Origin: an uncultured Spirochaetales bacterium
GTDB taxonomy: Bacteria > Spirochaetota > Spirochaetia > Sphaerochaetales > Sphaerochaetaceae
Assembly (NCBI GenBank): GCA_949297785.1
Contig: CASFTW010000007.1
Location: 1-64,000, forward strand
Direction of reading: 5' to 3'
Length of the DNA: 64,000 nucleotides
Shown in pieces: positions 54,668-60,436 of this stretch. How positions within the stretch are numbered: position 1 is the stretch's first letter; each line of letters opens with the position of its first letter. The translations under genes and the position numbers were made by a program. The notes below the pieces were generated by a model. It made no database searches and was not told where the DNA came from. It was given only the letters and a program-made list of their open reading frames with translations.

Positions 54668-56611
54668 TCATTGTTTTTCCGCAGCAAAGCTATACCCAGA
54701 AGCTTCAATAAAGTCATCATACACCCGCTGGGTGGAAGCCAGCTTCTGCTTTATATGTTCGGCAAGAGCTTTATCCGTGCAGTAGATATAACAACCTTTC
54801 ATTGCCCGGGAAAGAAGTGTCTTATATGTATCCCGTATTATCTTATCTTTCTTTTTCTCCGCCTCACGGCCTTTTTCCTTCATCCCCTTCACAGATGCAT
54901 CGGTTCCAGCTCTTTTCGAAGGATCTGTTATCACATGACCGTTTTCATAACGCAGGTCATTTCCGATAATGACTCCAACATATGAGAATTCGAGTCCCTG
55001 CGACGTATGAATGCAGCCAATCTGATCGACTGTATCATCATCGATTGCCCAGGTAGATGTATCATTGAAATTCCAGTATGCACGGAAATTCTGATCTTCT
55101 ACTACTATATCAGGGCCTGAATTATGGTCTTTCCGGGATATCCAGTTCCAGCAGTACCCCGCAAGCATTCTTGCCTTATTGTCAACAAGATTCTTTCTTT
55201 TGATATCCGCAAACATTCTGTTCAAATCATCATAAACCACCACATCATAGTCTGTCTTTTTGAAAACATAAGATCTCTCTTGCGATATTTCGAGGATATC
55301 ATCAAGGAAGTCGAGATATCCATCAGATCCATTACACCGGAACTGGGATTCAAGCTGACTGATATATATTTTCGCTCCTGCAGACCGGGCAAAGTGTTTT
55401 ATTCCATCTATGGTCCCGATATCTTTTGCCGTGACTATCTGGTTTTCATCAATGAAGAATACGGAAATCCTTGCTGCATTGATAATCTCCTTTATCTGAT
55501 TTTCACCTTTTGCAAACATCCCGGACTTCTCATTAAGTCTGTGCGCTTCATCCACTATAAGGACATCAAACGCATTAGCGGAAGTGGTAACAAAGCTTCC
55601 AGAACTCATAAAAAGGCTGTTGATATAGGCTTTTTTGAAATTCTCCCGGGCTAATTTTGCCTTATACACATTTCTCGGTGCGCTGTTCTTTGTCACATAT
55701 GCTCCTGTCTTTGAATCTTTTATGACAGAAGCAAGCAGATTGACGGCAAGCACACTTTTACCGGTGCCGGGTCCTCCTTTTATGATAAAAACCTTCTTGC
55801 TCCCATCTTCATTCCGAAGATGCCTGACTTCAGACATTATGAACTCGAAAACACTCTTCTGGGAATCAATGAGTACAAATTCATTGTGTTCATTTTCTTT
55901 ATCAAGCATTCTGCCAAGCACATCCTGAAGAGATTTTGAAGGCCGCAGCCTGCCATAATCAATGCGATATACGATATCCTTATCATCAGCATCACATACT
56001 TTTGAAAGAATGAATTTTCTCAGTTCCAGCGTCTCATGGGAAGTGAATACAGGTGCTTTGTCTATTTCCTTGTACACCATATTATCAACAACGGGATCAT
56101 CACGCCAGGGAACATAATTATGCATGAATGAGCATGGATAAAGAAGAATTCCATCTTTCTGCACACATTCATTGTATTCCTGCAACGTTACAGCATATGA
56201 CCATGCCTGGTATGACGGGTGAGGTACATTTCTCTCCCCGCCATTTATAACTGTACGCACAAAATCTTTGTCAGGAAGCGGCACTACGGAAGACCACTGT
56301 TTAAGCTCAACAATCACAACATTCTCCTGTCCGCTTTTATCTTTACCTGCAATCAGGAAATCTATTCTGCAACTTTGGAATGGAAGCCGGTACTCGATGC
56401 AGACACTGGCATCATCCGCGATCTCATCTGTATCCACAACAAAAGCCATATGTCTCAGAGAATTCTGCCATGCATGATATTCTGCAGGATTCACCTTCCC
56501 TATCCTTTTCTCAAATTCCGTCTTCACCAGATCAGCTATATTACAACCACATCCATATGGAGACATCGCACTTTCAATGAATGCTTTCTTTGTGGATTTA
56601 TAAATAATCAT
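54668..56611 (-). CDS. PD-(D/E)XK nuclease fused to DUF2075 helicase
   Basis: Protein of 647 residues with two parts. The N-terminal ~200 residues have a nuclease-like core: RIDFLIAG (Asp84) and VVIVELKQW (Glu102, Lys104), the D...ExK pattern. From about 250 on is a DUF2075 superfamily 1-type helicase: Walker A GGPGTGKS at 279-286, Walker B VLIVDEAH (Asp354), IDENQIV, SQFRCNGSDGYLDFL, IHTSQGLEFSYVGVIIG. This combination is typical of bacterial defence or repair proteins. It diverges from the HNH gene with a 115-base gap. Confidence 0.87.
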   Translation of the reverse strand: MIIYKSTKKAFIESAMSPYGCGCNIADLVKTEFEKRIGKVNPAEYHAWQNSLRHMAFVVDTDEIADDASVCIEYRLPFQSCRIDFLIAGKDKSGQENVVIVELKQWSSVVPLPDKDFVRTVINGGERNVPHPSYQAWSYAVTLQEYNECVQKDGILLYPCSFMHNYVPWRDDPVVDNMVYKEIDKAPVFTSHETLELRKFILSKVCDADDKDIVYRIDYGRLRPSKSLQDVLGRMLDKENEHNEFVLIDSQKSVFEFIMSEVRHLRNEDGSKKVFIIKGGPGTGKSVLAVNLLASVIKDSKTGAYVTKNSAPRNVYKAKLARENFKKAYINSLFMSSGSFVTTSANAFDVLIVDEAHRLNEKSGMFAKGENQIKEIINAARISVFFIDENQIVTAKDIGTIDGIKHFARSAGAKIYISQLESQFRCNGSDGYLDFLDDILEISQERSYVFKKTDYDVVVYDDLNRMFADIKRKNLVDNKARMLAGYCWNWISRKDHNSGPDIVVEDQNFRAYWNFNDTSTWAIDDDTVDQIGCIHTSQGLEFSYVGVIIGNDLRYENGHVITDPSKRAGTDASVKGMKEKGREAEKKKDKIIRDTYKTLLSRAMKGCYIYCTDKALAEHIKQKLASTQRVYDDFIEASGYSFAAEKQ

Positions 56612-56726
56612 CTCATTCCCCTTTTGTTAAAATATTAGCACAGCCAGGTGTCTTTTCACAGTAAAGTAACGGATATGGCAATTATAATTCCTGGACCTCA
56701 GGATAAGATGATGCTATCCTGGATCC

Positions 56727-57677
56727 ATGAACGGAATGGCAGAAAAACAGAACGGTGATTCATTCAAACTGAAAAACACTCTTAAAACAGGCAGGCAATA
56801 CAGTACTGACGATATCGCCAGAATACTTCAGAAGCATCCGAATGCGCTCTCCCAGACAGGAGTGTTCCACGGAGCCGGTTCTGACTGTTTCGTCATTTTT
56901 GTCACACTTAATAAGGAAAAAGACAAAACCCCTTATCAGGACCATTTCTTTGAACCATCATCTCTGCTATTCTGGGAAGGTCAGACAAAAATGAGAATAG
57001 CGGAAGATTCTTTCGATAAAGGATATGACTGCCATGCTTTCGTAAGAGAATTTTCCAGAATGCCATACACCTATTACGGAAGAGCCGTTCCCATACGGCA
57101 GCACAGAAACAATCCGGGCACCCCGTCCCAGTTTGTTCTATATCTTCCGGACTATGATGATTACAAGCGTGTTTCGCTGGGTGTCAGTGTAAGTACAACT
57201 GAAGAATACTTTGCGATGACAACCGAAAAACAGACAATCCGGACAGTGAGGACAAAACAGGCCGATTACAGGAAAAATGTAATTGCACTCTGGCATGGAC
57301 AGTGTGCGGTGACCGGAGTTGATGAGACATCCTGGCTGATTGCAAGTCACATAAAACCATGGAGGGAATCCACCAGCCAGGAAAGGACAGACCCGAAGAA
57401 CTCTCTGCTTCTCTCACCGAATTATGACAAATTATTCGACAGAGGCGTAATATCATTTAATCCGTCAAACGGAAAGATAATCCTTCCAGAAAGCATGAGC
57501 CATACATTCTGGAGGAACCTCGACCGCCTTGGCATTGATGATGAGAAAACACTTGCATTCATACCTGACGGCACAGAGAAATATCTTGAATATCATAAAG
57601 AATTGGTGTTCGGATTCACGCCATCAGCAGATTTCGATGCTGACGAGCTGGTGGCAAAAATGCTGCAGAGTGTTTAA
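56727..57677 (+). CDS. HNH endonuclease (HNH_2 type) with DUF3427-like N-terminus
   Basis: Protein of 316 residues. The C-terminal HNH_2 domain has CAVTGVDETSWLIASHIKPW (His208), DPKNSLLLSPNYDKLFDRGV (Asn225) and ISFNPSNGKI. The N-terminal part (RQYSTDDIARIL, FFEPSSLLFWEGQTKM, YYGRAVPIRQHRNNPGTPSQ, FVLYLPD) resembles the DUF3427 region found with helicases. Likely a restriction-type nuclease. The ribosome-binding site is weak and an ATG three codons later is also possible. Divergent from the nuclease-helicase gene. Confidence 0.87.
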   Translation: MNGMAEKQNGDSFKLKNTLKTGRQYSTDDIARILQKHPNALSQTGVFHGAGSDCFVIFVTLNKEKDKTPYQDHFFEPSSLLFWEGQTKMRIAEDSFDKGYDCHAFVREFSRMPYTYYGRAVPIRQHRNNPGTPSQFVLYLPDYDDYKRVSLGVSVSTTEEYFAMTTEKQTIRTVRTKQADYRKNVIALWHGQCAVTGVDETSWLIASHIKPWRESTSQERTDPKNSLLLSPNYDKLFDRGVISFNPSNGKIILPESMSHTFWRNLDRLGIDDEKTLAFIPDGTEKYLEYHKELVFGFTPSADFDADELVAKMLQSV

Positions 57678-57800: not shown

Positions 57801-58539
57801 ATGGAATACACGACTTTCATATTCGACAACTACCCCGTCATGCATCTGTGCATCTCGGACAGGTTTCCTCTTCCCTATTCGGTTGGAAAGGAGTATGTGG
57901 TGCTGACACATTTTTCATCCGGAAAATGTATGCCCCTTTGAAGAAAGGACAGGTCCTGTAGACTTCACATTCTTCAGTCTGAGAGACAGTGTTGTAACAT
58001 TTGAAAGGGAGCCTGACAACCCTGTCGACCCTGATGCTGTCAAAATCCTTGTAGACGGTAAATGGGTCGGTTACTTTTACCGGACAAGCTATGTGCGCTC
58101 GCAGCTGCTCAGATGCTTCCGTAACCCCGGTCGGTTCTATATCATGGGAAAGCTTGAGAACATAGAGCCCGTGGAGGGAAAGCTGAGAATCAATGTCGGC
58201 GTCTATGAAAAACTGTGTCCGGATGAATATCAAAGCATCGGTGTGTTTCCGCTTAAAGACAGCAGAAACACAGCATGGGAATCATCTGAATTCATTTCCC
58301 ATTTCGTCAGAGCCGAGAAGGTATACATAAATGGGAAAGTTCTCATAAAGCTTTTCAACCGTGCAGAGGTTTACATAGGAAGGATGTCTTTCAAGAAAGC
58401 TGCAATATGGGACAAGATTCATCTTTTCAAGGATATGAGATTTTACATCAAGGACAGCTGGCTTACAAAAAAAGGAAAAAAGTATTCTGTGGAAGTGTTT
58501 GTGAAGAAGCCGGCCAATATTGCGTTTCAGGAAATCTGA
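57801..58539 (+). pseudogene. HIRAN-like domain protein, frameshifted
   Basis: The reading starts MEYTTFIFDNYPVMHLCISD, runs to a stop after 46 codons, and resumes in the +1 frame as EERTGPVDFTFFSLRDSVVT, then FEREPDNPVDPDAVKILVDG and KWVGYFYR, to an end at PANIAFQEI. REPDNPVDPDAVKI...GKWVGYFYR is the HIRAN-like core seen in nucleic-acid repair proteins. Removing one C from the CCCC run at 57933-57936 restores one frame of about 245 codons. Recent frameshift, slippage-based switching or a base-call error are all possible. Confidence 0.75.
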
Positions 58540-58702: not shown

Positions 58703-60436
58703 TCAAACGCAGAATCCCCTCCTCCTCAGCTCATCTTTCAATGCCGGATGCCGTGGATAGCGTTTCATTACATCTTCAAGTATCTTTTCCGCAGCTGTCT
58801 GGCCTTTTTCATAGGCCCGCAGGTACGCAAGATCTTCAGCAAAATGTGAATAAGCAGAACGATTGCTCATACCAGCTGAAGATCTTTCAGCCCTGGCTGC
58901 CGCAAGAGAGACAACACGATCAGGATAGTATTCATACAAAAGTCTCTCATATAACAGAGGTCTATATGCCGCATTCTTCTCCACCCATTCCATCAGAGCC
59001 TCATAATCCTTTTCGCCAAGCAGAAGAAGCGGCATGTCAGAACCGGCTGTACCAGCATTCTTCAGCTTCTCATAAACCTCTTTCCACTTCCGGCTGCCAG
59101 CAAGCTTCTTGTATTCACGGATCCTGTCAAGATTGTCCTGATGAATGTGCAATATGTTGTATTCAAGCTCGGCTTTGTAATCAGCATCCATGTTGTTTTT
59201 CCTGAAAACATCCAGAAGGCGTGAAGAGGCTACTGAATGCAGGTTGATCATGCGGGAAGAGGAAACAGGATTGGCTTCTTTGACCTTGCTGAGAAATTCA
59301 ATGAGAGACTGGGTATCACTTTGCTTCTCATACTCATCAATTCCGGCATCGACAGCCGTCTCGACATCAAGATGGGATGAAATACAGTTCCACATGCCAT
59401 TCTCATAGCCGAGCGTTTTAAACGCGAGAATGCATAAACCTACAGACCACCTGTCATCCTCACTGCCATATTTCTCTATTACCTTTTCTGCAAGAGCTTC
59501 ATCCTCAATAACTGCAAGCATCATTTTCACAAAGGAATAATAATGTCCTGTATAGCTGTCCACTCTCTCAAGAGCGGCGGAAAGACGGTTTTTCATCTGC
59601 AGATGCACTTGTGTGTCTGCACCGGTATATGCAGATTCCAATACGGACAATATTTCATCCTCGATATCTGCACTGCCGCCCATTGTCCGCTCTTCAATAA
59701 TGGGGAAAGGAATGTTGTTCCATGCGTAAAGCGCTACATCAAAAGCCTCTGCGAACTGCCCTTTATCAAGCAGGATGGGAAGGTCCTCACCAAGTATCTT
59801 ATCAAGTTTGATTACAGCATCTTCCATATCCTCATTGAAATCGGAGTACCAGTCACCATCATCAGCATTGCGGAGATCAAATGAAGCACTGTATATTTCA
59901 TTCTCAAGTTTCTGAACGTATGAGTGCGGCATTTTATCTGCATAGGTGAGAAGAATATTATCTGATATATCACTGTGGGAAGAGGCAAGTTCAAGGACGA
60001 GAGACTCAAGTTCTTCCTTTTTCATTTTCCTAACTATTTCCCTGATTTTCGACTCAGATGTCTCATGAGTTTCTTCAGAAGCTGCAGGCTTGATATCTGT
60101 ATCGTCTTTGACAGAAATATCACCAAGACCTCCATCACCGTCCAGTTCAAGCGCATACAGCACGGCTGCCTCATGCTTGCAGTAATTCCCCTCCTGAGAA
60201 TAAGGACAGTCACAGTCGGCATCGATGAAGTCATCATTCTCATCCACATCAATCGTCACGGTGTATTTCCATGATCCCTCCACCGTGGCAGTATAACCGC
60301 CTTCAGTTTTCTCTATATCAAGTACGTTGCCGTTTTCATAATATTCATATCCCCTGTTGAGGATTCTTGATGAAAAACAGTCTTTCCACTCTCCGTTCAT
60401 GATTTCACCCAAATTCCGTACTCTTTGTTCTGACAT
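58703..60436 (-). CDS. SWIM zinc-finger domain protein
   Basis: Protein of 577 residues. The N-terminal SWIM finger is CDCPYSQEGNYCKH (Cys75, Cys77, Cys86, His88; CxCx8CxH), preceded by the usual WKDCFSSRILNRGYEYYENG module. The remainder is helical with repeat-like segments (SLVLELASSHSDISD; AEAFDVALYAWNNIPFP; YKKLAGSRKWKEVYEKLKNA), resembling the long helical C-terminal region of bacterial SWIM proteins. DNA or protein binding is likely; the role is unknown. No SNF2 helicase partner is nearby. Confidence 0.85.
   Translation of the reverse strand: MSEQRVRNLGEIMNGEWKDCFSSRILNRGYEYYENGNVLDIEKTEGGYTATVEGSWKYTVTIDVDENDDFIDADCDCPYSQEGNYCKHEAAVLYALELDGDGGLGDISVKDDTDIKPAASEETHETSESKIREIVRKMKKEELESLVLELASSHSDISDNILLTYADKMPHSYVQKLENEIYSASFDLRNADDGDWYSDFNEDMEDAVIKLDKILGEDLPILLDKGQFAEAFDVALYAWNNIPFPIIEERTMGGSADIEDEILSVLESAYTGADTQVHLQMKNRLSAALERVDSYTGHYYSFVKMMLAVIEDEALAEKVIEKYGSEDDRWSVGLCILAFKTLGYENGMWNCISSHLDVETAVDAGIDEYEKQSDTQSLIEFLSKVKEANPVSSSRMINLHSVASSRLLDVFRKNNMDADYKAELEYNILHIHQDNLDRIREYKKLAGSRKWKEVYEKLKNAGTAGSDMPLLLLGEKDYEALMEWVEKNAAYRPLLYERLLYEYYPDRVVSLAAARAERSSAGMSNRSAYSHFAEDLAYLRAYEKGQTAAEKILEDVMKRYPRHPALKDELRRRGFCV

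Follow-up and report, generated by a model that had tools for sequence, protein, structure and literature searches.

A predicted SRA-HNH modification-dependent endonuclease recurrently paired with a Schlafen-type nuclease-helicase, probably for phage defence, in an uncultured Spirochaetales bacterium and its relatives

The window analysed here is a stretch of 64,000 nt from an uncultured Spirochaetales bacterium (assembly GCA_949297785.1, contig CASFTW010000007.1, positions 1 to 64,000), in which two genes for predicted DNA-acting enzymes, P0001 and P0002, lie head to head. Their features are as follows.

54668-56611, minus strand: P0001, a nuclease-helicase of 647 aa
55937-56611, minus strand: N-terminal PD-(D/E)XK-like domain of P0001 (residues ~1-225), from the alignment of 31 homologues and the predicted fold order
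54773-55798, minus strand: SF1 helicase domain of P0001 (residues 272-613), from the PF09848 match and conserved motifs
56612-56726: intergenic region of 115 bp between the divergent starts
56727-57677, plus strand: P0002, a predicted SRA-HNH modification-dependent endonuclease of 316 aa
56745-57188, plus strand: predicted SRA (DUF3427-type) modified-base reader of P0002 (residues 7-154), from structural match and conservation
57219-57620, plus strand: HNH (beta-beta-alpha-Me) nuclease domain of P0002 (residues 165-298), from the match to VcaM4I (6yex)

An earlier note on this DNA had described the two genes as a divergent pair, and both open reading frames are indeed present, with their start codons 115 bp apart. 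For the short shared promoter region that it also proposed, no sigma-70-like match was found in the intergenic region. Since the genes are divergent, they have no operon arrangement in the window, which weighs against a joint function.

The description of P0002 as a DUF3427-like/HNH_2 protein was borne out by Pfam (HNH_2, E 3e-14; positions 119-245 of DUF3427, E 1e-10), and among the aligned members of the family the HNH_2 match is found in 23 of 23 and the DUF3427 match in 18 of 23. In the AlphaFold2 model of P0002 (pLDDT 81), residues 7-154 form an SRA domain that aligns with the target-recognition domain of SauUSI (7clg; Z 10.1, 117 residues, 3.4 A, 23% identity), with the SRA domain of SUVH5 (Z 10.1) and with TagI (Z 9.6); Foldseek also retrieved SUVH5 with a probability of 1.00. 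The homologue alignment shows Y70, D72, W83, Y116, G118 and R119 of this domain to be invariant. A sequence search did not reach SauUSI 7clg; judged by residue spacing, D72 and W83 may be the equivalents of SauUSI Asp-858 and Trp-868. The C-terminal part, residues 165-298, aligns in structure with the HNH domain of VcaM4I (6yex; Z 14.2, 36% identity), and H208, N225, D234 and D238, all invariant in 23 homologues, align in sequence with the catalytic residues H224, N241, D250 and D254 of that enzyme (PMC7897488). Because of this architecture, the conserved catalytic residues and the role of DUF3427 as the 5mC/5hmC reader of SauUSI (PMC3874153, PMC7913695), the label of HNH nuclease, although correct, can be made more specific: P0002 is a new predicted SRA-HNH modification-dependent (type IV-like) endonuclease, whose SRA domain, to go by its modelled fold, would bind modified bases.

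Among the known enzymes, TagI and ScoA3IV have the same layout as P0002, with an SRA reader and then an HNH nuclease in a single chain of ~300 aa, but the HNH domain of P0002 is closer to VcaM4I, its SRA domain is closer to SauUSI (DUF3427), and a nuclease-helicase gene adjoins it. VcaM4I, for its part, has an EVE reader where P0002 has SRA, despite the likeness of the two HNH domains and their four active-site residues.

P0002 could also be read as the cutting partner of a methyltransferase in a type II restriction-modification system, with the methyltransferase giving protection. PADLOC type II HNH models do match the P0002 HNH domain, and in three relatives (loci L108, L122 and L130) a C5-methyltransferase lies within ~5 kb. 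Those three loci carry SRA-HNH genes without an adjoining helicase. In L108 and L130, however, the C5-methyltransferase stands beside a type II restriction enzyme of its own. Pfam identified no methyltransferase among the scanned genes that flank P0002 in the window, nor was a PF00145 match found in the genome of the window. We therefore consider the type II reading very unlikely.

The distribution of methyltransferases also bears on the base that P0002 would recognise. If the enzyme cut self-methylated DNA, C5-methyltransferases should be depleted in the genomes that carry it; enrichment was observed instead (19 of 28 SRA-HNH genomes versus 37 of 111 others, p 0.001, with shared ancestry ignored), which makes cleavage of any 5mC unlikely, and which could be explained by larger accessory genomes. 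A likelier target than 5mC in general is therefore 5hmC, or 5mC within a limited sequence context.

P0001 agrees with its earlier description as a nuclease-DUF2075 helicase. The PF09848 family (SLFN-g3_helicase, formerly DUF2075) matches it with E 3e-100 and 336 bits, against a curated cut-off of 24, and the helicase domain has Walker A (GGPGTGKS) and Walker B (VDEAH) motifs among its conserved helicase motifs. The alignment of 31 homologues, archaeal and plasmid members among them, shows no variation in the helicase motifs GGPGTGK and DEAH or, in the N-terminal part, at E44, E73, D84, E102-x-K104 and Q135. The order of helices and strands in the AlphaFold2 model (pLDDT 84) is compatible there with a PD-(D/E)XK core, while the NERD match to this part, at 14.8 bits, is below the Pfam cut-off, and a structure search with the whole model returned matches taken up by helicases. 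These motifs and the predicted secondary structure fit an intact PD-(D/E)XK nuclease, and suggest that the N-terminus may be an active one.

In structure comparison, the predicted helicase matches UvrD with Z 19 and human SLFN11 with Z 18. SLFN11 and SLFN14 belong to the same PF09848 family, but a Schlafen RNase core was not detected in P0001, which has the PD-(D/E)XK-like domain in its place. PADLOC models for AbiO/Nhi match the SF1 helicase region at ~1e-16, although only over residues 242-428 (approximately positions 174-332 of the 470 in the model), so that the match is not full-length and leaves the N-terminus unmatched; moreover, Nhi is a single-gene system (PMC12904381). The PADLOC candidate PDC-S41 also matches P0001, at 2e-10.

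A helicase fold of the UvrD/RecD kind would also suit housekeeping DNA repair, in which the helicase-nuclease and the HNH protein would process damaged bases in host DNA. The patchy distribution of the genes, the defence genes that adjoin them and a degenerate helicase allele next to well conserved flanks in genome G014 all argue against repair, which we regard as extremely unlikely. In G014, a near relative (L084, contig C51:159-2104), the SRA-HNH protein is 96% identical and the helicase just 49-74%; the helicase gene carries stops and a frame break, which points to allele replacement or decay.

In the window, metabolic genes flank the pair on one side, and HIRAN-like, SWIM and HipBA genes on the other. 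The HIRAN-like gene (57803-58539) scores 20.4 bits, below the HIRAN cut-off of 24.7; a frameshift divides it over two frames, and it is either a pseudogene or a sequence error. Of the HIRAN-like, SWIM and HipBA neighbours, to which the earlier note had drawn attention, SWIM also adjoins the pair in the sister genome, G013, where neither HIRAN nor HipA is present. This absence and the broken HIRAN frame led us to reject HIRAN, SWIM and HipBA as members of the system. The SWIM-domain protein (58703-60436) matches the PADLOC candidate PDC-S62 weakly; within the genus, 5 of 16 genomes have it. Defence genes are found beside the pair in close relatives: it comes behind Wadjet JetC and JetD in G034 and behind an Avs2 gene in G037 (PADLOC E 2e-199), while in G013 a single gene separates it from that of an AbiL-like ATPase.

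The co-occurrence of the two genes was surveyed in 139 genomes of the order, counting P0002-type genes at an E value of about 1e-45 or better and treating the genes as linked when they lie on the same contig no more than 3 kb apart. The P0002-type gene is present in 28 genomes and the P0001 homologue in 46. The genomes with both, SRA-HNH only, helicase only and neither number 22, 6, 24 and 87, respectively (odds ratio 13; Fisher p 4e-8, with shared ancestry ignored), and the genes are linked in 16 of the 22 genomes that have both and unlinked in 6. The linked arrangements vary: the genes are divergent and 115 bp apart in G000 and G013; SRA-HNH precedes the helicase on the same strand with a spacing of 59 bp in G034 and G037; the helicase precedes SRA-HNH in G068, which has an additional SRA-HNH copy 16.8 kb away; the two are co-directional with a MazG gene in between in G090; and in ten genomes SRA-HNH is divergent from a MazG-helicase unit. 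Mapped onto the tree of SRA-HNH proteins, linkage requires 5 changes, 4 of them forced by well supported branches, and there is a partner swap, in which the G068 helicase clusters with the window's own (support 100/98) and the G068 SRA-HNH with the one in G090. Because of the swap and these changes, at least four in number, the pairing must have formed or re-formed more than once.

The homologues of the two genes thus co-occur in other genomes. Even so, they may be independent defence genes that share one island, an SRA-HNH enzyme and an AbiO/Nhi-like nuclease-helicase that each stand alone and are functionally uncoupled, and we give this explanation somewhat less than an even chance. Each gene occurs alone (the helicase is missing from 6 of the 28 SRA-HNH genomes, and SRA-HNH from 24 of the 46 helicase genomes), TagI acts as an NTP-independent single-chain enzyme and Nhi needs one gene, and the neighbours change from Wadjet to Avs2 to AbiL-like. 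The repeated re-pairing of the helicase with different SRA-HNH subclades and the co-directional 59-bp spacing in two genomes speak for a functional link instead. Since defence genes cluster anyway, adjacency by itself is no proof of cooperation, and because either gene occurs without the other, cooperation is something that we infer. The two-nuclease defence module put forward in the earlier note therefore holds in part: the non-random pairing, the repeated joining and the defence neighbours in close relatives sustain it, whereas the single occurrences of each gene do not.

The commonest partner of the helicase elsewhere is a MazG-like gene, which adjoins the P0001 homologue in 29 of 56 loci (L110-L121, L140, L143-L145, L147, L148, L151, L154, L156, L159-L162, L166 and L168-L170), several of them with 4-bp overlaps. 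These loci span Spirochaetota, Halobacteria, Bacillota, Bacteroidota, one gammaproteobacterium and one phage record, with Halalkalicoccus, Priestia, Marivirga and Halomonas among the bearers, and in some spirochaetes the MazG-like protein has an N-terminal helix-turn-helix. The phage record (PP438423.1, L170), labelled as a Microcystis phage, encodes a helicase 44% identical together with a MazG gene, so that a presumed mobile element carries this core. No name for the MazG-helicase core was found in the literature and database search.

It is possible, and we propose it tentatively, that P0001 derives from such a MazG-helicase defence core and that SRA-HNH is its remaining partner in the window. 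The overlapping MazG and helicase genes of several phyla favour this origin, and MazG, helicase and SRA-HNH are present all together in 11 loci; since a MazG-like (PF12643) match was not found in the window's genome, the window would hold a reduced or derived version. On the other hand, the helicase clade of the window lacks MazG entirely in the loci examined, and P0001 may therefore act differently there.

Other genes also accompany the MazG-helicase unit. In six loci a second HNH protein is encoded directly 3' of the helicase, with a 4-bp overlap in 5 of the 5 measured; the overlapping genes include L110:5596-6504, L119:4706-5623, L143:9245-10162 and L144:6785-7693. No Pfam model matches the N-terminus of this second family, which looks EVE/PUA-like by eye. 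In four genomes a DUF488 protein and its partner, which match the PADLOC candidate PDC-M19A/B (as at L115:8368-10120), lie between SRA-HNH and the MazG-helicase unit. A broader interpretation, which we find rather doubtful, is an unnamed multi-gene system, in which a PD-(D/E)XK-Schlafen-type helicase, often associated with MazG, would use interchangeable HNH nucleases that read modified bases for target recognition (SRA-HNH in the window, the second HNH family at other loci). Such a system would be a counterpart of SauUSI divided over two proteins and driven by another kind of motor.

The reading that we favour, with fair though limited confidence, is that both products of the locus are phage-defence enzymes that act on DNA, P0002 as a type IV-like cutter and P0001 as a helicase-nuclease. 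The SRA domain of P0002 would flip out and read a modified base, with modified cytosines as the likeliest targets (5hmC, for example, or 5mC within a limited sequence context), after which the HNH domain would cut the DNA nearby. P0001, driven by ATP, would start from the ends or single strands that the cut leaves behind, or else, independently, from phage replication intermediates, and would unwind and degrade the DNA; a review describes action on phage DNA intermediates for Nhi (PMC12904381). Base reading and cutting by P0002 follow, as predictions, from homology, while degradation by P0001 and its coupling to P0002 are steps that we infer. The two proteins are probably a phage-defence pair that may act together, and each probably also functions without the other.

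Such a pair would resemble SauUSI in the kind of modified-cytosine reader and in combining reading, an ATP-driven motor and a nuclease. SauUSI, however, joins PLDc, an SF2 ATPase and DUF3427/SRA in a single chain, of which P0002 has just the SRA part, and the locus distributes the functions between separate proteins, a reader with HNH and an SF1 helicase (PF09848) with PD-(D/E)XK. Scans with PADLOC, NCBIfam and PHROGs named no system for the pair, and neither the matching PADLOC models nor the searchable literature holds a named system with exactly these two genes. In the literature searched, with subscription journals outside the scope, we found no pairing of DUF2075 with DUF3427, no anti-phage pairing of DUF2075 with HNH and no combination of MazG, Schlafen and helicase, and matches for DUF2075 alone were unrelated.

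Taken singly, P0001 and P0002 are known kinds of proteins; what appears to be new is their recurrent pairing. If the two cooperate, type IV restriction would here be divided between two proteins, with a small modified-base reader and cutter feeding DNA breaks to a separate Schlafen-type helicase-nuclease. Cooperation, if true, would also hint at a function for the DUF2075/Schlafen-group-3 helicases, which are widespread beside MazG in bacteria and archaea, yet nearly absent from the searchable literature.
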